A stretch of 55,715 nt of DNA from Bacteroidales bacterium (GTDB lineage: Bacteria > Bacteroidota > Bacteroidia > Bacteroidales > UBA10428), in the NCBI GenBank assembly GCA_016929525.1, contig JAFGIP010000022.1, positions 1 to 55,715 on the forward strand, read 5' to 3'. A model generated the notes under the pieces. It did not search any database. It saw nothing but the letters and a program-made list of their open reading frames with translations, and was not told the DNA's origin. Made by a program: the position numbers and the translations under genes. Positions 27,275 to 36,191 of this stretch are shown here, in pieces; positions within the stretch are counted from its first letter, which is position 1, and each line of letters starts with the position of its first letter.

Positions 27275-28495
27275 ATGGACAGATGTTCATTTTGTGGTAG
27301 AGAAAAACGCGATACAAACCTGCTTATTGCCGGTATATCGGGACATATCTGTGACAACTGTATTGAACAGGCGTACGAGATTGTTCAGGAAGAACTGAAA
27401 AAATCCGGCGATTTCGATATCAATACCATTCAACTCGTTAAACCTTCAGAAATCAAAGCTTCTCTCGATCAGTATGTAATTGGTCAGGATCAGGCAAAAA
27501 AATACCTTTCTGTAGCAGTTTATAATCACTATAAGCGACTAATGCATTCGCACAGAAAAGATGAAGAGGTTGAAATTGAAAAATCGAATATAATTCTGGT
27601 CGGTGAAACAGGCACCGGGAAAACATTACTGGCAAGAACTATAGCCAGATTACTGAATGTTCCTTTTACAATTGTCGATGCAACTGTCCTGACCGAAGCC
27701 GGATATGTTGGTGAAGATATTGAAAGTATCCTGACAAGACTTTTACAGGTAGCCGATTATAATGTCGAGGCAGCAGAAAAAGGAATAGTCTTTATCGATG
27801 AAATAGATAAAATAGCACGTAAATCAGACAACCCCTCAATCACTCGCGATGTATCCGGTGAAGGAGTTCAGCAGGGCCTCCTGAAATTACTTGAGGGGTC
27901 TGTGATCAACGTTCCCCCGCAGGGAGGACGTAAACACCCCGATCAGAAAATGATACCTGTGGATACACGGAACATATTATTCATCTGTGGCGGAGCATTC
28001 GATGGTATAGAAAAAAAGATTGGGCACAGATTGAATACAAAGGTTGTAGGTTACAGCTCAGTAAAAAATACCGAGAAAGTCGATCGGGAAAACTTACTTC
28101 AGTACATTGCCCCTCAGGATTTGAAAGCATACGGAATGATTCCCGAGATCATTGGCCGCCTGCCGGTATTAACGTATTTGCACCCTTTAGACAGGAATAC
28201 CTTGCGACAAATACTTACTGAACCTAAAAATTCTATTATCAAACAGTATATAAAACTGTTCGATATGGATGGTATCAAGCTAACATTTAAAGACAGTACG
28301 CTTGATTATATTGTAGATAAAGCCATAGAATTTAAACTCGGCGCCCGCGGATTACGTTCTATTTGTGAGGCAATAATGATGGATGCAATGTTTGAACTGC
28401 CTTCAAAAGGGGTTAAAGAAGAAATGGTGATAACAAAAAAATATGCGGCAGAAAAACTTGAAAAGCAGGATATTAAACGACTGAAGGTTGCATAG
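27275..28495 (+). CDS. clpX: ATP-dependent Clp protease ATP-binding subunit ClpX
   Basis: A 406-residue AAA+ unfoldase that feeds substrates to ClpP. The N-terminal zinc finger has Cys4, Cys7, Cys26 and Cys29. Walker A is [11 protein letters not shown], the substrate-gripping pore loop is GYVGED, Walker B is [13 protein letters not shown], and sensor segments GLLKLLEGS and [11 protein letters not shown] are present. The overall length is normal. Its stop lies just before the trp leader promoter, so the trp operon starts immediately downstream. Confidence 0.98.
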
Positions 28496-28497
28496 CA

Positions 28498-28530
28498 TTT
28501 GTTTTATTGAAAAACTATAGCATATATTTG
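28498..28530 (+). promoter_or_regulatory. Promoter of the trp operon
   Basis: TTTG (28498-28501) and TATATTTG (28523-28530) match the two Bacteroidota boxes with a 21-base spacer, slightly longer than ideal. Transcription would start a few bases downstream, 10-15 bases before the leader peptide ATG at 28549. Confidence 0.65.
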
Positions 28531-28548
28531 CAAAGAAATCAAACTAAA

Positions 28549-28608
28549 ATGAAAAAGATTCTTTTTACAAACTGGTGGTGGTGGCTCCGAATTCTTGCGA
28601 ATCCGTGA
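28549..28608 (+). CDS. trpL: trp operon leader peptide
   Basis: A 19-codon frame encodes MKKILFTNWWWWLRILANP. Four consecutive TGG codons (28573-28584) in such a short peptide, directly ahead of trpE, identify it as a tryptophan-sensing leader peptide. In ribosome-mediated attenuation the ribosome stalls on these codons when charged tRNA-Trp is scarce. The stop codon (28606-28608) lies inside the 5' arm of the antiterminator, so a ribosome finishing the peptide would mask it. The frame is too short to be found by standard gene callers. Confidence 0.93.
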   Translation: MKKILFTNWWWWLRILANP

Positions 28609-28665
28609 GGTAAGATCCATTTTGTAAAAATCAAAGATACAAAAGCGGCCTATCGTAACTCACGG
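28603..28665 (+). promoter_or_regulatory. trp antiterminator pairing (regions 2:3)
   Basis: CCGTGAGGTAAGAT (28603-28616) can pair with ATCGTAACTCACGG (28652-28665), 12 of 14 positions complementary with a 7-bp uninterrupted core CCGTGAG/CTCACGG. This pairing uses part of the terminator's 5' arm, its loop and the first bases of its 3' arm, so the two structures exclude each other. Confidence 0.85.
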
Positions 28666-28682
28666 TAGGCCGCTTCTGATTT
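28643..28682 (+). terminator. trp attenuator terminator (regions 3:4)
   Basis: A 13-bp stem AAGCGGCCTATCG/CGGTAGGCCGCTT (28643-28655 and 28663-28675, one G-U pair) encloses the loop TAACTCA. The following tract, CTGATTTATG, is only moderately T-rich, so termination may be incomplete. It lies 50 bases before trpE. Confidence 0.88.
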
Positions 28683-28732
28683 ATGTCTGCGAGTAAATCT
28701 AACCCATTTTGTGCAATGAAACCATACTGACA

Positions 28733-30139
28733 ATGAAGAAACATAAGATCAAATTAATAACGAAAAGGGTACTTGCTGATGTTGTGACACCTGTAAGCAT
28801 CTATATCAGGGCCAGGGAGTCATTCCCTAAATCATTCCTTCTGGAGAGCTCCGATTATCATGGACATGAAAACAGCTATTCTTTCATCTGCCTTGATCCC
28901 GTTGCAACTTTTATGGTTGACTCGGGGAGCTACTATGAGGAATGGCCTGATGGTACCAATGATAAAGGCAAGCTTGAAAATATTCATGATTTCCGGGACA
29001 GATTCGATAGTTTTATTCGCTCATTCGAAGTAGCAGAAGGAGATTCAAGCCTGGTAAACGGAATATTCGGATATTCTTCTTACGATGCAGTCCAGTATTT
29101 TGAGACTATAAAATTCCATAGTCCTGTTAAAGAAGAATACAATATACCGGATCTTCAGTATAATTTCTTTCGTCACATAATTGCCATAAATCACTTTAAT
29201 AACGACCTGACCTTACTGGAGAATCTCTTTGATGGCCAGAAGAGCGAAATTGAAAAAATTCAGGAATTGATTTTCAAGATCGGTGTTATTGAACCTGATA
29301 AGTTTATACCTTCAGAAAAGGAGAAATCGAATATAACCGATGAAGAGTATATGCAAATGGTGACTTACGGCAAAAAACATTGTCAACGTGGTGATGTTTT
29401 TCAGATTGTTTTATCACGTCAATTCTCACAACCTTATTCAGGAGATGATTTCAATCTGTACCGGGCACTTCGATCAGTAAATCCTTCCCCATACCTTTTT
29501 TACTTCGATTATGGTGATTTTTGCATATTTGGCTCATCACCTGAAGCACAACTGAAGATAGAAAACGGAAGAGCCGTTATTAATCCGATAGCCGGCACTT
29601 TTAAACGTACCGGTGACGATGTAAAAGATAATGAGCTGGCCATACAGCTTTGTGCTGATCCAAAGGAGAATGCAGAACACGTAATGCTTGTCGATCTTGC
29701 ACGTAACGACCTTAGTCGCCATGGAACAGATGTGCATGTTGATAAATATCGAGAAGTACAGTTCTACTCTCATGTTATTCACCTGGTCTCTACAGTTTCG
29801 GGTCAGCTCAATGAACCATCCAAAGTTGTGGATATGATGATGGCTACTTTCCCCGCAGGAACTCTATCAGGAGCTCCTAAATATAAAGCCATGGAGCTGA
29901 TAGATAAATATGAAAATCAAAACAGAAGCTATTATGGAGGGGCAATAGGCTTTATCGATCTGCAATACAATCTGAACCATGCTATTATGATCAGAACATT
30001 CCTGAGTAAGAATAATACACTATTCTACCAGGCAGGTGCAGGAATTGTTTCAGAATCAAAAGAAGAGAATGAATTGCAGGAAGTAAATAATAAACTCGGG
30101 GCATTAAAAAAAGCAATTAACCTGGCTAAAGAAATATAA
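28733..30139 (+). CDS. trpE: Anthranilate synthase component I
   Basis: Converts chorismate to anthranilate with ammonia from TrpG, the first committed step to tryptophan. From ATG 28733 the protein has 468 residues. The N-terminal domain carries SFLLESSD, matching the LLES feedback-inhibition element that binds tryptophan. The catalytic domain shows GDVFQIVLSRQFS, INPIAGTFKR, DLARNDLSRHG, FPAGTLSGAPKYKAMELID and YYGGAIGF. A longer frame from a TTG at 28709 is unlikely. It is first in the operon after the attenuator and ends two bases before trpG. It contains a single Trp codon, in keeping with economy in tryptophan biosynthetic enzymes. Confidence 0.97.
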   Translation: MKKHKIKLITKRVLADVVTPVSIYIRARESFPKSFLLESSDYHGHENSYSFICLDPVATFMVDSGSYYEEWPDGTNDKGKLENIHDFRDRFDSFIRSFEVAEGDSSLVNGIFGYSSYDAVQYFETIKFHSPVKEEYNIPDLQYNFFRHIIAINHFNNDLTLLENLFDGQKSEIEKIQELIFKIGVIEPDKFIPSEKEKSNITDEEYMQMVTYGKKHCQRGDVFQIVLSRQFSQPYSGDDFNLYRALRSVNPSPYLFYFDYGDFCIFGSSPEAQLKIENGRAVINPIAGTFKRTGDDVKDNELAIQLCADPKENAEHVMLVDLARNDLSRHGTDVHVDKYREVQFYSHVIHLVSTVSGQLNEPSKVVDMMMATFPAGTLSGAPKYKAMELIDKYENQNRSYYGGAIGFIDLQYNLNHAIMIRTFLSKNNTLFYQAGAGIVSESKEENELQEVNNKLGALKKAINLAKEI

Positions 30140-30141
30140 CA

Positions 30142-30714
30142 ATGAGAAAAATATTAGTAATAGACAATTACGATTCCTTCACATATAACCTTGTTCATTA
30201 TGTGAAAAACCTGACAGAGGATACTGTTGATGTATACAGAAACGACCAGATTGACATTGAAAAAATAAATGAATATGATAAGATCCTGCTATCGCCCGGA
30301 CCCGGAATTCCGATTGAAGCCGGTATTTGTCTCGACCTTATAAAAAAGTATTATATGATAAAAAGTATTCTTGGAGTCTGTTTGGGACATCAGGCAATAG
30401 GAGAAGCGTTTGGTGGCAGTCTGATCAACCTGGATAAAGTATATCATGGTGTCTCAACCCCTGTAGATATACTTACACCGGAAGACAGACTTTATGAAGG
30501 CATCCCTGGCAGATTTATGGTCGGAAGATATCATTCATGGGTGGTATCGCGGAATGATCTCCCCGACTGTTTCAAAATAAACAGCCTCGATGAACATGGA
30601 ATGATTATGGGAATTAGTCATAAAGAATATGATGTAAAAGGCGTACAGTATCATCCCGAATCGGTGCTTACAGAACATGGATTGAAGATCGTTGAGAACT
30701 GGCTGAAGAAATAG
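30142..30714 (+). CDS. trpG: Anthranilate synthase component II (glutamine amidotransferase)
   Basis: A 190-residue class I glutamine amidotransferase that releases ammonia from glutamine for TrpE. The nucleophile is Cys80 in LGVCLGHQAIGEAFGG, with His171 and Glu173 in GVQYHPESVLTEHG. The oxyanion-related SPGPGIP motif is present. The HGVST segment after the nucleophile region is usual for TrpG/PabA. It starts immediately after trpE and could also serve para-aminobenzoate synthesis, as TrpG does in some bacteria. Confidence 0.97.
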   Translation: MRKILVIDNYDSFTYNLVHYVKNLTEDTVDVYRNDQIDIEKINEYDKILLSPGPGIPIEAGICLDLIKKYYMIKSILGVCLGHQAIGEAFGGSLINLDKVYHGVSTPVDILTPEDRLYEGIPGRFMVGRYHSWVVSRNDLPDCFKINSLDEHGMIMGISHKEYDVKGVQYHPESVLTEHGLKIVENWLKK

Positions 30715-30726
30715 TTATTCATTTAT

Positions 30727-31503
30727 ATGAAATATACGTTCGGACATACAACTCTGGCTGCAGAAAGACTTCGGAGGATAGCTGAGTTTTTTAACCCATA
30801 CTCGTCCAGGTTTATCTTATCAGGTGTGAATGATAAAATTATATCGGCCTGTGATATGGGTTGCGGACCAGGCTATTCAACAGAAATGCTTTATGAAGCA
30901 ACAAAAGCCAATAGTATTACCGGATTAGATTTTTCCGAAGACTTTATTTGTATAGCTAAGGAAAAATACAATGATTTTATTTTTCAGAAACAAGATGTTA
31001 CCAAAAATTTGGGTGTTCATAAATATGATCTTATTTATTCGAGATTTTTACTTTCTCATATCCCTGACATCTCATCTGCAATAAATACCTGGAAAAATTC
31101 ATTAACAAAAAATGGAAAAATCTTCATTGATGAACTGGAAGACATTAATACTGAAGTTCCGGTTTTTAAAAAATATCTGCAAATTAGCGGCTCTTTGGTA
31201 AAATCGCAGGATGCAGAATTATTTGTCGGGAAGAAAATGGATTCGGCAATTAAAAGTTATAACGTTGAAAATAATTATAGCGAAGTTATTAAAGTCCCTG
31301 ATCGTCAGGCATCGGCCTGGTTTTATCCAAATGCTGCAGGTATATGGTCAGAATCGGAAGTAGTAAATAATATTATCGGCAGATCTGAAATACTGCAAAT
31401 ACAAAAAAAGTTGCTGGAACTGATGGATAATGAGAGTAAGGAAAGCCGGATAACCTGGAAAATGAAAAGAATAATAATATTTAACAAAATAACCAAACCT
31501 TAA
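30727..31503 (+). CDS. Class I SAM-dependent methyltransferase within the trp operon
   Basis: A 258-residue protein with the Rossmann methyltransferase motif I (ACDMGCGPGYSTEML), an acidic residue at the end of strand 2 (ITGLDFSEDFI), and motif IV-like YDLIYSRFLLSHIPD. The C-terminal part (SAWFYPNAAGIWSESEV) would hold substrate-specific elements. It lies 12 bases after trpG and its stop is one base before the trpD ATG, so it is transcribed and probably translated with the trp genes. Methyltransferases are not part of tryptophan synthesis, so the substrate is unknown; an anthranilate- or indole-related metabolite is a guess from position. It has four Trp codons, unlike the Trp-poor genes that follow it. 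Confidence 0.85.
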   Translation: MKYTFGHTTLAAERLRRIAEFFNPYSSRFILSGVNDKIISACDMGCGPGYSTEMLYEATKANSITGLDFSEDFICIAKEKYNDFIFQKQDVTKNLGVHKYDLIYSRFLLSHIPDISSAINTWKNSLTKNGKIFIDELEDINTEVPVFKKYLQISGSLVKSQDAELFVGKKMDSAIKSYNVENNYSEVIKVPDRQASAWFYPNAAGIWSESEVVNNIIGRSEILQIQKKLLELMDNESKESRITWKMKRIIIFNKITKP

Positions 31504-31504
31504 A

Positions 31505-32497
31505 ATGAAAGAAATATTAATCTATCTGTTCGATAAGAATATCCTTAAGCAGGAGGAAGCTAAAAACATCCTCACTGAAATAGGACAAGGAAAATATTCT
31601 GAATCTGAAATGGCATCCTTTCTTACTGTATACCTGATGAGAAAGATTGCACCGCAGGAGCTTGCAGGTTTTAGAGAAGCATTACTCGACCTTTGTATAC
31701 CAGTCGATTTATCGGAATATAATACAATTGATGTTTGTGGTACCGGTGGCGATGAAAAGAATACTTTCAATATTTCTACGCTTACTTCTTTTGTATTGGC
31801 CGGAGTGGGTGTTAAAGTAGCAAAACATGGCAACTACGGGGTATCCTCCCCTTGTGGTTCATCGAATATACTTGAGCATTTCGGTTATAAGTTTTCAAAT
31901 GATCAGGGTAAAATTAAGAAGGAAATTGATGTAGCAAATATCTGCTATTTGCATGCTCCTTTCTTTCATCCTGCCATGAAACATGTAGGTCCGGTTAGAA
32001 AATCGCTGAGAGTAAAGACTTTCTTCAACATGTTGGGACCAATGGTAAATCCGGCAAAGCCTGAGAACCAGATTGTCGGCGTTTTTAATGAAGAAGTTCA
32101 GGAGCTATACAACCAGGTATATACTAAGTTAGGTGTTAATTATTTTATTCTTTACAGTAAGGATGGCTACGACGAAATTTCGCTAACTGACAATTTCAGG
32201 GCACTGTCTGCAAAAGAAGATAAAACGTACAGCCCCGAAGATATTGGCCTGTCAAAAGTAAAACCGGAAGAATTATCAGGAGGAAAATCAGTAGAAGAAT
32301 CAGTAAAAATATTTGCAGATATCCTTGAAGGCAATGGAACAAAAGCACAGGTTTCAGCAACACTAGCTAATTCCGCATTTGCTTTAAAATGTATTTCACC
32401 CGAGAAATCAATCGAGGAATGTATTCAGACTGGAAAGGAATCTTTAGAGAGTAAAAGAGCACTTGGTGCACTGAAAAAATTAATTTCTTTACAATAG
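31505..32497 (+). CDS. trpD: Anthranilate phosphoribosyltransferase
   Basis: Transfers phosphoribose from PRPP to anthranilate. The 330-residue protein contains VCGTGGDEKNTFNIST (the GTGGD PRPP loop), VKVAKHGNYGVSSPCGSSN (KHGN motif), and FFHPAMKHVGPVRKSL with the following LGPMVNPA. It is a stand-alone TrpD, not fused to TrpG. It contains no Trp residue. Translation is coupled to the preceding methyltransferase (one-base gap), and trpC follows after six bases. Confidence 0.97.
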   Translation: MKEILIYLFDKNILKQEEAKNILTEIGQGKYSESEMASFLTVYLMRKIAPQELAGFREALLDLCIPVDLSEYNTIDVCGTGGDEKNTFNISTLTSFVLAGVGVKVAKHGNYGVSSPCGSSNILEHFGYKFSNDQGKIKKEIDVANICYLHAPFFHPAMKHVGPVRKSLRVKTFFNMLGPMVNPAKPENQIVGVFNEEVQELYNQVYTKLGVNYFILYSKDGYDEISLTDNFRALSAKEDKTYSPEDIGLSKVKPEELSGGKSVEESVKIFADILEGNGTKAQVSATLANSAFALKCISPEKSIEECIQTGKESLESKRALGALKKLISLQ

Positions 32498-32503
32498 GTA
32501 GAA

Positions 32504-33286
32504 ATGTCGATATTAAATACAATAGTTGCGCATAAGAAGAAAGAAGTTGCCAGTACAAAAGAATTAATACCCATACCTGAACTGGAAAAGTTTGAATATT
32601 TCAATCGTAAAACTATAAGTTTTAAAGACCATATTATAGCTGAAGATAAAACCGGTATAATTGGCGAATTCAAACGTAAATCTCCGTCAAAAGGAATAAT
32701 AAACAATACGGCACGGGTTGAAGAAGTTACAAAGGGATATGCTCTGGCCGGAGCATCAGCATTGTCAGTGCTTACGGATTTTATTTTTTTCGGCGGTGTT
32801 GTCGATGATCTGAGAATTGCCCGTGCTGCAAACAAAATTCCTATATTAAGAAAGGAATTTATTATTGACGAATACCAGATTCTGGAAGCAAAAGCTATAG
32901 GGGCAGATGCTGTCTTACTGATTGCATCCATTCTTGAGATAAAAAAGGCTAAGGATCTGGCCAGAAAAGCCCATGATATTGGCTTGCAGGTACTCATGGA
33001 AATACATGACGAAAATGAACTTAGCAGGATTAACGAACATGTTGATGTGGTTGGAGTAAACAACCGCAACCTGGATACTTTTGTGGTCGATCTTCAACAC
33101 TCTGTCAGTTTATCAGAGATGATCCCGGATGGTTTTGTCAAGATCTCCGAAAGTGGTATCTCAAAACCTGAAGACATCTTATTTCTCAGACAGCATGGAT
33201 TCGATGGTTTCCTGATTGGGGAAAATTTTATGAAGAATGATGATCCCGTATTCGCATTTTCAGAATTTGTAAAAAAAAATATGTAA
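32504..33286 (+). CDS. trpC: Indole-3-glycerol phosphate synthase
   Basis: Closes the indole ring from CdRP by decarboxylation and dehydration. The 260-residue TIM barrel shows IIGEFKRKSPSKG (catalytic Lys region), ALSVLTDFIFFGG, PILRKEFIIDEYQI, VGVNNRNLDTF and ISESGISKPEDI. It is not fused to TrpF. No Trp residue is present. A 128-base gap separates it from trpF, longer than other spacings in the operon, with no terminator visible. Confidence 0.97.
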   Translation: MSILNTIVAHKKKEVASTKELIPIPELEKFEYFNRKTISFKDHIIAEDKTGIIGEFKRKSPSKGIINNTARVEEVTKGYALAGASALSVLTDFIFFGGVVDDLRIARAANKIPILRKEFIIDEYQILEAKAIGADAVLLIASILEIKKAKDLARKAHDIGLQVLMEIHDENELSRINEHVDVVGVNNRNLDTFVVDLQHSVSLSEMIPDGFVKISESGISKPEDILFLRQHGFDGFLIGENFMKNDDPVFAFSEFVKKNM

Positions 33287-33414: not shown

Positions 33415-34047
33415 ATGAAAGATGATCCTTTTAAAATAAAGGTGTGCGGGATGAAAGATCCTGAGAATATCAAACAATTGGTAAAGTTGAAACCGGATTA
33501 CATCGGATTTATTCTTTATCCTTATTCTAAGAGATATGTTGGCGATAATTTCAGGGTTGAAGTTAAATTTCCCGGGAATATTAGAAAAGTAGGTGTTACG
33601 GTTAATGCCTTATTTAATGATGTAGTACGTTGGGCAAATATATTAAAACTGGATTATGTGCAACTTCAAGGTGATGAGTCACCGGAATATTGCAGAGATC
33701 TGAAAGGATTTGATATTAATATAATTAAATCTTTCGGAATAAATGAATCATTTGATTTTTCTGTATTGAATGACTATATGGAGGTTTGCGAGTTTTTCCT
33801 GTTCGATACTAAAACACCATTGCATGGAGGTTCCGGTAAAAAATTCGAATGGGGAAAATTATCTGAATATGAGCTTCAGAAATTTTTTTTTCTGAGCGGG
33901 GGAATTGGTCCCGACGATGCCAGTAACATAAAAAAAAATAAAGACCTCCCGATAGAAGCCATCGATATAAACAGCAAATTTGAAACAGAACCTGCAATGA
34001 AGGATATTAATCTGTTAAAGAGTTTTATAAAAGAAATACGTGAATAA
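33415..34047 (+). CDS. trpF: Phosphoribosylanthranilate isomerase
   Basis: Catalyses the Amadori rearrangement of PRA to CdRP. The 210-residue barrel begins with IKVCGMKDPENI (catalytic Cys) and contains DYIGFILYPYSKRY, VGVTVNALFNDV, LDYVQLQGDESPEYC and LFDTKTPLHGGSGKKFEW (acid Asp). The ending FFLSGGIGPDDASNI is typical. The start ATG at 33415 opens directly on the family's N-terminus. It is followed by trpB after nine bases. Confidence 0.96.
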   Translation: MKDDPFKIKVCGMKDPENIKQLVKLKPDYIGFILYPYSKRYVGDNFRVEVKFPGNIRKVGVTVNALFNDVVRWANILKLDYVQLQGDESPEYCRDLKGFDINIIKSFGINESFDFSVLNDYMEVCEFFLFDTKTPLHGGSGKKFEWGKLSEYELQKFFFLSGGIGPDDASNIKKNKDLPIEAIDINSKFETEPAMKDINLLKSFIKEIRE

Positions 34048-34056
34048 TTTATTAAT

Positions 34057-35250
34057 ATGAAATATACAGTCGATAAGAAAGGGTTTTATGGTGAATTCGG
34101 AGGGTCTTTTATACCGGAAGCCATGTATCCGAATATTGAGGAACTAAGAATGAACTACCTCGATATAATGAACAGTACGGATTTCAAAAAGGAGTTTAAA
34201 CAACTGCTGAAAGATTATGTTGGCCGGCCGTCACCACTTTATTTTGCCAAAAGACTATCGGAGATGCATGACACAAAGATCTACCTGAAACGGGAAGATC
34301 TGAACCATACAGGTTCTCATAAAATAAACAATACAGTCGGGCAGATCCTGATCGCTAAAAAACTTGGTAAGACCCGTATAATTGCTGAAACCGGAGCAGG
34401 TCAGCATGGTGTTGCAACAGCTACTGTTTGTGCTCTTATGGGAATAAAATGCGTCGTATATATGGGTGCCCTTGATGTATCGAGGCAGGCACCAAATGTT
34501 TTGCGCATGAAAATGCTCGGAACCGAAGTTATTCCTGTAGAAAGTGGCAATAAAACACTAAAAGATGCAACCAACGGGGCTATGCGCGACTGGATTAACA
34601 ATCCGTGGGATACGCATTATATTGTCGGTTCTGTCATTGGTCCCCATCCCTATCCCGATATGGTAGCACGCCTGCAATCAATTATCAGCGAAGAAATGAA
34701 ATGGCAGTTAAAAAAACAGGTTGGCAGGGACTACCCTGACTATATCCTGGCATGTGTGGGTGGAGGCAGTAATGCAGCCGGAGCATTCTATCATTATCTC
34801 GACGACGAGAAAGTTAAGCTAATCGCAACGGAAGCTGCGGGATTGGGAGCAGACACACCTGAAACGGCTGCAACACTTGCTATCGGTTCCCCCGGAGTAT
34901 TGCACAGTTGCCGGACCATGCTCATGCAAAACGAAGACGGGCAAATAACAGAGCCTTACTCAATATCGGCAGGGTTAGATTATCCCGGAATAGGGCCAAT
35001 GCACTCATGGTTACATAAGATAGGCAGGACTGAATATCTGTGCATAACCGACAAGGAAGCAGTTGATGCTGCATTTACTCTTACTCAGACCGAAGGGATT
35101 ATACCGGCTCTGGAATCAGCACATGCCCTGGCGGTGCTCAATAAGAAGAAATTCGGAAAGGATGACGTTGTGGTTATTAATTTATCGGGAAGAGGTGATA
35201 AGGATATGCATACTTATATTGATATAATGCAGAAAAAAATAAATATCTAA
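34057..35250 (+). CDS. trpB: Tryptophan synthase beta chain
   Basis: A PLP enzyme that condenses indole with serine. The 397-residue protein is of the TrpB1 type and starts [18 protein letters not shown] is bound by the Lys in [15 protein letters not shown]. Also visible are [26 protein letters not shown] (phosphate loop), [16 protein letters not shown] and [11 protein letters not shown]. It contains four Trp residues, most at conserved positions. A 170-base gap with a palindromic repeat separates it from trpA. Confidence 0.98.
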
Positions 35251-35420: not shown

Positions 35421-36191
35421 ATGAACAGAATCGAACAGTTATTTAAAACAAAAAAGAACAATATTCTTTCGATATATTTTACAGCAGGTCATCCCACACT
35501 GGATTCAACCGTTGAAATAATCAAAACCCTTGTCGAAGAAGGAACCGACCTCATCGAAATTGGTATCCCTTTTTCCGATCCCATTGCCGACGGACCGGTC
35601 ATCCAGAAAAGCAGCCAGACTTCTCTGGAGAATGGAATGAGCCTGAAATTGTTATTTGAGCATATAAAAGATATCAGGAAAGATGTTAATATCCCTCTGA
35701 TACTTATGGGTTATCTGAATCCTGTCCTTCAATACGGAATTGAAACATTTTGTAAGAAATGCAATGATGTTGGTATCGATGGTACCATACTTCCCGATCT
35801 GCCTTTCGATATATACCAGGAAGAATACGAGTCGATCTTCGATAAGCACAACATATACAACATTTTTCTCATAACACCTCAGACCAATGACGAACGTATC
35901 AGGAAGATCGACAATGCCAGCAAAGGTTTCATTTACATGGTAGCTGCATCCGCTACAACAGGAATACGACAGGGTTTTGAAGAATACCAGCAGGATTATT
36001 TTATTCGCATAGAGAAACTCGGTTTAAAACACCCACGCCTGATCGGTTTTGGGATATCCAGCAGGGAAACCTTTCAACATGCCTGTAAATATGCAAACGG
36101 GGCAATTATTGGCAGCGCTTTTGTGAGTGCCCTTGAGGAAGCTTCGGATTTAAAAAAAGGTGTTCAGGGGTTTATAAGAAATATTCAGTAA
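35421..36191 (+). CDS. trpA: Tryptophan synthase alpha chain
   Basis: Cleaves indole-3-glycerol phosphate to indole, which is channelled to TrpB. The 256-residue TIM barrel shows IYFTAGHPTLDST, LIEIGIPFSDPIADGPVIQ (catalytic Glu and the Asp of SDPxADGP), LMGYLNPVLQYG, DGTILPDLPFD and YMVAASATTGIR (loop 6 equivalent of SRAGVTG, slightly divergent). The terminal GSAFVSALEE is usual. No Trp residue is present. It is last in the operon. Confidence 0.96.
   Translation: MNRIEQLFKTKKNNILSIYFTAGHPTLDSTVEIIKTLVEEGTDLIEIGIPFSDPIADGPVIQKSSQTSLENGMSLKLLFEHIKDIRKDVNIPLILMGYLNPVLQYGIETFCKKCNDVGIDGTILPDLPFDIYQEEYESIFDKHNIYNIFLITPQTNDERIRKIDNASKGFIYMVAASATTGIRQGFEEYQQDYFIRIEKLGLKHPRLIGFGISSRETFQHACKYANGAIIGSAFVSALEEASDLKKGVQGFIRNIQ

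Follow-up and report, generated by a model that had tools for sequence, protein, structure and literature searches.

The leader and operon at the locus

The window, by which we mean the whole stretch analysed (55,715 nt; positions 1-55,715 of contig JAFGIP010000022.1 from a Bacteroidales bacterium, GCA_016929525.1), holds a tryptophan (trp) operon downstream of clpP-clpX, and between them lies the short leader that is our subject. Judging from its anatomy and its conservation in relatives, this leader almost certainly subjects the trpEG-(methyltransferase)-DCFBA operon to ribosome-mediated transcription attenuation, in which a leader peptide and competing hairpins very probably let the bacterium switch on the trp genes when tryptophan is short. 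All features of the window described here are on the forward strand.

The leader open reading frame (ORF; 28549-28608) starts 53 nt behind the end of clpX and encodes the 19-residue peptide MKKILFTNWWWWLRILANP. As a first-pass annotation had stated, it comprises 19 codons with four consecutive TGG codons, running from an ATG at 28549 through the Trp codons at 28573-28584, the presumed sensor, to a TGA stop at 28606-28608; the 12-mer formed by the four Trp codons is found three times in the assembly of 4.06 Mb. A His leader, MILIKTHHHHYDTDNR, lies in the same genome ahead of a hisG-family gene (locus L209, G000:C94, positions 191-242 of the reverse complement), and between this leader and the start codon that follows is a hairpin with a T-run (GGTTTGCAACTACTGCAAACCTTTTTT).

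Three helices can be drawn in the leader RNA. The first, absent from the earlier account, is a leader (1:2) helix pairing region 1 at 28562-28571 with 28621-28630. The second is the putative antiterminator, in which region 2 (CCGTGAG, 28603-28609) pairs with region 3 (CTCACGG, 28659-28665) over seven contiguous pairs. The third is a predicted intrinsic terminator hairpin (28643-28675; -23.8 kcal/mol) with 14 contiguous pairs, 28643-28656 with 28662-28675, which contains the pairing of 28643-28655 with 28663-28675 proposed previously. For the antiterminator, the first-pass annotation had given 28603-28616 with 28652-28665; pairing is indeed found there, with a 7-bp core, but as one unbroken helix of 14 positions the proposal had to be given up, as only seven pairs are contiguous and by eye the arms show short stretches and two mismatches. 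Conservation of the antiterminator was accordingly counted for the 7-bp core only, and it is within this core that the leader stop codon lies, in keeping with its earlier placement inside the antiterminator arm. The leader helix crosses the antiterminator and the antiterminator crosses the terminator; in the window, the CUC of region 3 is in the terminator loop and its ACGG in the terminator 3' arm. A pattern scan of 28450-28800 found this terminator and no other, whereas 50 shuffles gave 0.2 on average. In the folding check suggested at the outset, the 205-nt leader folded better than all 200 dinucleotide shuffles (z -3.59).

A candidate -7 element, TATATTTG (28523-28530), and a candidate -33 element, TTTG (28498-28501), stand ahead of the leader, the latter just behind the clpX stop codon and with its TTG 21 nt before the -7 element. 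Both fit the Bacteroidota type that the first-pass annotation had named; in PMC9723704, the motif is given as TAnnTTTG. In 17 of 19 family leaders this motif lies no more than 80 nt from the leader ATG, compared with 246 of 3,800 mononucleotide shuffles, and in all 17 a TTG precedes it by 18-21 nt, a spacing counted without a shuffle control. These observations suggest a promoter of the Bacteroidota type directly behind clpX.

The operon behind the leader reads trpE, trpG, a gene for an S-adenosylmethionine (SAM)-dependent methyltransferase, trpD, trpC, trpF, trpB and trpA. The first gene, trpE (anthranilate synthase component I, 28733-30139), has TIGR00564 as its best match at 421 bits, below the curated cut-off of 517.7, and trpF (33415-34047) matches phosphoribosylanthranilate isomerase models, all likewise below their cut-offs; both names therefore rest on best match and operon context, together with the alignments of relatives in the case of trpE. 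Curated cut-offs are exceeded by trpG (anthranilate synthase component II, 30142-30714; TIGR00566, 178.5 bits), trpD (31505-32497; TIGR01245), trpC (32504-33286; NF001377), trpB (34057-35250; TIGR00263) and trpA (35421-36191; TIGR00262). The most likely start of trpE is the ATG at 28733, rather than the TTG at 28709 of the mechanical ORF, because in most relatives the alignment begins between query residues 5 and 9, and this ATG is residue 9. The leader stop is thus 124 nt from the likely trpE start; in some relatives (L026, L030, L199, L201) the distance is about 200-350 nt. The methyltransferase gene (30727-31503), which is outside the switch, lies between trpG and trpD, and homologues with 43-46% identity are found 600 nt behind trpE in three of the 19 other family loci (L017, L019, L027), some loci being too short to reach there.

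Conservation and covariation in the family

Comparison with relatives allowed us to assess the leader beyond a single genome. The family set comprised 23 genomes, 21 of them with TrpE at E <= 1e-80, and 20 of these 21 loci hold upstream DNA. A Trp-run leader ORF is present in all 20. Short ORFs with at least three Trp in six residues were found in 19/19 family upstreams but in only 7 of 9,500 dinucleotide shuffles. The family alignment (A1) contains 19 of the 20 loci; L030 was left out, and in that locus the terminator sequence recurs behind a run of N, probably an assembly gap.

In A1 the leader helix has 85.1% of its cells paired and six of its ten pairs with changes on both sides. Taken together, leader helix and terminator pair in 92.7% of cells, show changes on both sides in 10 of their 24 pairs and reach a covariation of 0.208, compared with 0.100 in shuffled alignments (none of 500 as high) and at most 0.109 when the helices were slid. 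Conservation of the leader frame and of the stems in relatives had been set beforehand as a test of the proposal, and both are conserved, the stems by covariation, which supports the classical attenuation logic described in the first-pass annotation.

The conservation of the Trp run also bears on the possibility that a TRAP-type tryptophan-binding protein or a T-box riboswitch attenuates the operon and that the Trp codons are incidental. It is established that terminator-controlled trp operons of Firmicutes act through TRAP or a T-box; against this reading of the window stands the Trp-run ORF in every family locus with upstream DNA. Furthermore, models of TRAP (PF02081) and of the Trp repressor TrpR (PF01371) had no match in the 97.7%-complete genome and both matched in control genomes (Bacillus subtilis for PF02081). 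No T-box was found in the window at the Rfam gathering threshold, at which two tRNAs are the only matches, nor among the nine matches in 28450-28800 up to E 10. On these grounds we rejected control by TRAP, TrpR or a T-box, and consider an explanation by TRAP or T-box extremely improbable. The lineage of the window, in whose genome the TRAP and TrpR models find no match, very probably senses tryptophan through the leader peptide.

TnaC is an arrest peptide that senses free tryptophan, and the leader peptide might by analogy respond to free tryptophan rather than to starvation at the codon level. In favour of this, the nascent peptide is Trp-rich and peptide ends are similar within clades. However, the residues after the Trp run differ within the family (LRILANP, LRIRQKP, LGVIK, HKVLHDFVR) while the RNA pairing stays, and the target genes make tryptophan, so that starvation is the expected signal. 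We give an arrest peptide hardly any chance.

The antiterminator across the family and the phylum

Region 2 reads CGTGAG in 18 of the 19 aligned family loci, the window included, and TGTGAG in L024. Within the family, further evidence comes from loci in which the leader stop codon has moved. In L019 the frame runs through ACC GTG AGT to a stop at the codon that follows, with the antiterminator element kept; in L025 the frame likewise reads through the element, which stays, and a C-G pair of the antiterminator has changed to U-A; in L024 the stop codon occurs earlier and the element is still present.

For a survey of this pairing across the phylum we started from 136 loci with a TrpE hit and kept 117. 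Left out were 13 loci whose contigs were represented by another locus, L030 for its N gap, L035 for its lack of upstream DNA, and L081, L098, L105 and L128 for their short upstream pieces. A hairpin was obtained for 114 of the 117 (not for L139 and L143), and L136 was without a leader by our criterion. CGTG-type pairing is present in 85 of the 114 loci and a pairing score of at least 15 was reached by 91, the remaining 23 being weak. The partner of region 2 is the terminator loop or 3' arm in 88 of the 91 loci and the 5' arm in three; as many of the loci are close relatives, these counts are not independent. Three of the 88 (L072, L080, L110) pair with the hairpin foot or U-tail and look spurious. 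Since region 2 pairs with the loop and the 3' arm, the terminator 5' arm would be shut in the loop of the antiterminator and not consumed by it.

Several loci have exchanged the sequence of the antiterminator. In L108 and L111 the sequences differ but pairing is retained (per-locus shuffle values 0.00 and 0.007), and the Labilibacter and Plebeiobacterium loci (L074, L086, L089, L103) combine GAGGTT or GAGGTA with AACCTC or TACCTC, pairings that with per-locus shuffle values of 0.10-0.16 are suggestive only. A further alignment (A3) of 48 loci was obtained by thinning 74 that had been selected for a WWW run, an antiterminator with CGTG, a pairing score of at least 15 and a length of at most 160 nt. 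In A3 the two pairs at the 5' side of the core covary (UA 27, CG 14, UG 1, other 6; and AU 18, GC 15, other 15). Cells paired, double-change cells and covariation of the A3 antiterminator were each above all 500 shuffles. The shifted stop codons together with the sequence-swapped antiterminators of relatives provide comparative evidence for the switch helix itself.

Folding predictions and a model of the switch

The two outcomes of the switch were predicted by folding 19 family loci with an assumed ribosome footprint. With a ribosome halted at the first Trp codon the antiterminator is predicted in all 19 loci, and with a ribosome at the stop codon the terminator is predicted in all 19. The window has a leader ORF with a Trp run, a predicted terminator between this leader and the first gene and, in silico, a mutually exclusive antiterminator that can be reached when the ribosome halts.

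From this arrangement we infer the following course of translation, pausing, termination and response to tryptophan. A ribosome would start on the 19-codon leader soon after its transcription. With ample charged tRNA-Trp it would proceed to the stop codon inside region 2 (28603-28609) and cover this region; the terminator (28643-28675) would then form and transcription would end ahead of trpE. When tryptophan is short, the ribosome would halt on the four Trp codons and cover region 1, leaving region 2 free to pair with 28659-28665 once that is transcribed. The terminator 5' arm would be enclosed in the antiterminator loop and the polymerase would continue into trpE.

Several observations weigh against this model. 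The full-length RNA at equilibrium prefers the terminator in 19/19 loci even with a halted ribosome; because the complete RNA has this preference, the switch must be kinetic and decided during RNA synthesis. Without a ribosome the antiterminator is still predicted in 8 of the 19 loci, including the window, which means that an untranslated leader would not clearly be switched off. For the antiterminator, the core CGUGAG/CUCACG varies among the 19 A1 loci only in L024, and there on a single side, and seven of these loci have a broken outermost pair (five C-A, two A-A or A-G); pairing counts within the family therefore tell little. In A3 the core was fixed by the selection of rows, two of five measures were not above the shuffles (445 and 495 of 500 as high), and a control slid by +3 equalled the antiterminator in covariation (0.214 vs 0.200), though with 40.6% rather than 89.6% of cells paired. 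The score of the window against RF01692, the Rfam family Bacteroid-trp, is 44, below the gathering score of 49. Finally, the terminator tail, CTGATTTATG, is a poor U-tract.

The weak U-tract also fits an alternative in which the hairpin is not a working terminator and the leader acts on translation or on access of Rho, a halted ribosome uncovering the trpE start or shielding a Rho site. Two findings argue against it: the hairpin ends 57 nt ahead of the likely trpE start, and T-rich tails follow the corresponding hairpin in a number of relatives. We regard this alternative as very improbable, and transcription attenuation as the far better account of the leader.

Predicted tandem attenuators in Prolixibacteraceae

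The window itself has one attenuator. In relatives from Prolixibacteraceae and their kin, a second Trp leader precedes the usual one. We fetched 80 named trpE loci, of which two were too short and 78 had an upstream piece of at least 250 nt; the additional leader (unit 1), of the type IWLPWWGLL or IWLWWG, is present in 26 of these 78 (L072, L073, L075-L080, L082-L084, L087, L088, L090-L096, L099-L102, L104, L110), at a distance of 140-235 nt from stop to stop.

Unit 1 appears to be a complete attenuator. Its leader helix has 21 consensus pairs, six of them with changes on both sides, a terminator hairpin is found in 26/26 loci with a T-rich tail in 24, and the antiterminator starts in the terminator 5' arm in 25. 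Upon folding, a halted ribosome gives the antiterminator in 24 of 26 loci and a ribosome at the stop codon the terminator in all 26; without a ribosome the antiterminator is predicted in one. L080 has TTAGAAG/CTTCTAA in place of the AGGAG/CTCCT forms usual in its subgroup. The consensus fold of the unit-1 alignment contains the leader helix and no terminator, because its two subgroups diverge in that part; the terminators were located in each sequence individually.

A model of unit 1 matched four of four tandem genomes, each of them represented in the alignment from which it was built, and found nothing in the one genome without the unit that was also searched. Among 140 genomes of the family to which the Draconibacterium genome belongs, it gave a single match in each of 97 at E <= 1e-6, and for 82 of these the score was at least 91 bits. 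Of the 97 we inspected 30, namely the 10 best and 20 picked from the whole range of scores. Both leaders stand ahead of trpE in 22, seven have one only (all below 85 bits) and one is without trpE in the piece fetched. The 97 are therefore an upper bound, given the seven loci with a single leader. Eight of the 30 were already among the 26, and 14 of the 22 are additional tandem loci. The tandem arrangement is also listed for L179-L189, L192, L198-L204 and L206-L208, from Prolixibacteraceae and kin.

The unit-1 model also weakly matches single leaders of the window's family (best E 2.3e-5, L022), which suggests that unit 1 and these leaders share descent. The model R2 matched none of 395 phylum-sample genomes at E <= 1e-4; this count is uninformative, as the sample was not shown to include any genome in which the unit is known. 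In nine tandem loci Rfam gave no Bacteroid-trp match at E <= 0.1, the single match being a sub-threshold GlmZ over unit 1 of L077.

A search of open-licence papers for tandem or double trp attenuators found no trp case. It yielded only PMC3641672, on tandem attenuators of Salmonella mgtCBR that respond to two signals, and PMC12452182 (2025), on contiguous riboswitches, which mentions tandem T-boxes. The mgtCBR leader shares with the tandem loci two leader ORFs in series ahead of one operon but differs in its two signals, as the two leaders of the Prolixibacteraceae relatives serve the same amino acid.

Considering single and tandem leaders together, we think it somewhat more probable than the contrary that trp attenuation in Bacteroidota is a widespread module with a geometry of its own, the antiterminator seizing the terminator loop and 3' arm, and that in Prolixibacteraceae two complete attenuators for the same signal act in cascade ahead of trpE, with an antiterminator that, in the upstream one, begins in the terminator 5' arm. 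If this is true, read-through of a tandem leader would result from multiplying two tryptophan-dependent steps, and starvation would evoke a steeper response than with one attenuator. The double attenuators thus pose a quantitative question, namely what range and steepness are gained from a second copy of the same sensor.

Comparison with known attenuators

The first-pass annotation had asked how widely such attenuators have been described in Bacteroidota. As far as the parts of the sources available to us go, this kind of leader has already been described (RF01692, 2010; PMC6414381; PMC9723704), and the surprise is mostly gone. RF01692 dates from Weinberg et al. 2010 (PMC2864571), with the motif listed in Table 1; in the main text of that paper 'tryptophan' and 'leader peptide' do not occur. 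PMC6414381 (2019) draws a parallel between Bacteroid-trp RNA and the trp leader of E. coli, and locates the RNA upstream of the Flavobacterium psychrophilum trp operon. PMC9723704 (2021) speaks of strong clues that attenuation by leader peptides takes place ahead of amino-acid operons in a flavobacterium, and PMC7366714 mentions short ORFs of B. thetaiotaomicron that are reminiscent of leader peptides. The mechanism is thus of a known kind and the window is ordinary in kind. What gives the finding value is the comparative support, together with an Rfam threshold that the leader misses, a geometry that captures the terminator loop, and the doubled version seen in relatives.

RF01692 aligns to 28526-28654 of the window over model positions 1-131 of 131 (44.0 bits, E 3.8e-4); weak matches also occur elsewhere in the genome (L002-L006). 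At E <= 0.01 there are matches in 9 of the 23 genomes from the window's family, and none of the 23 reaches the gathering score, which hence misses the leader in 23/23 genomes, and in the phylum sample 47 of 395 genomes match, 37 of them above the gathering score. Our model R1 covers the terminator helix only, and its count of 153/395 genomes at E <= 0.01 was not used, as it would include generic terminators.

The window leader stands ahead of trp genes in Bacteroidota, the phylum being taken from the records of relatives, and has consecutive Trp codons. We file it, on sequence grounds, as a ribosome-mediated attenuator and a sub-threshold homologue of Bacteroid-trp. Shared with RF01692 are the phylum, the place ahead of trp genes, the consecutive Trp codons and a helix that includes them; in contrast, the match ends at 28654, inside the terminator 5' arm, and the Rfam structure is without terminator or antiterminator.

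The E. coli trp leader has the same overall design, a short Trp leader with three competing helices and the leader stop in region 2. It has two Trp codons, whereas the window has four in a row, and its region 2 pairs with the terminator 5' arm, whereas here region 2 pairs with the loop and the 3' arm.
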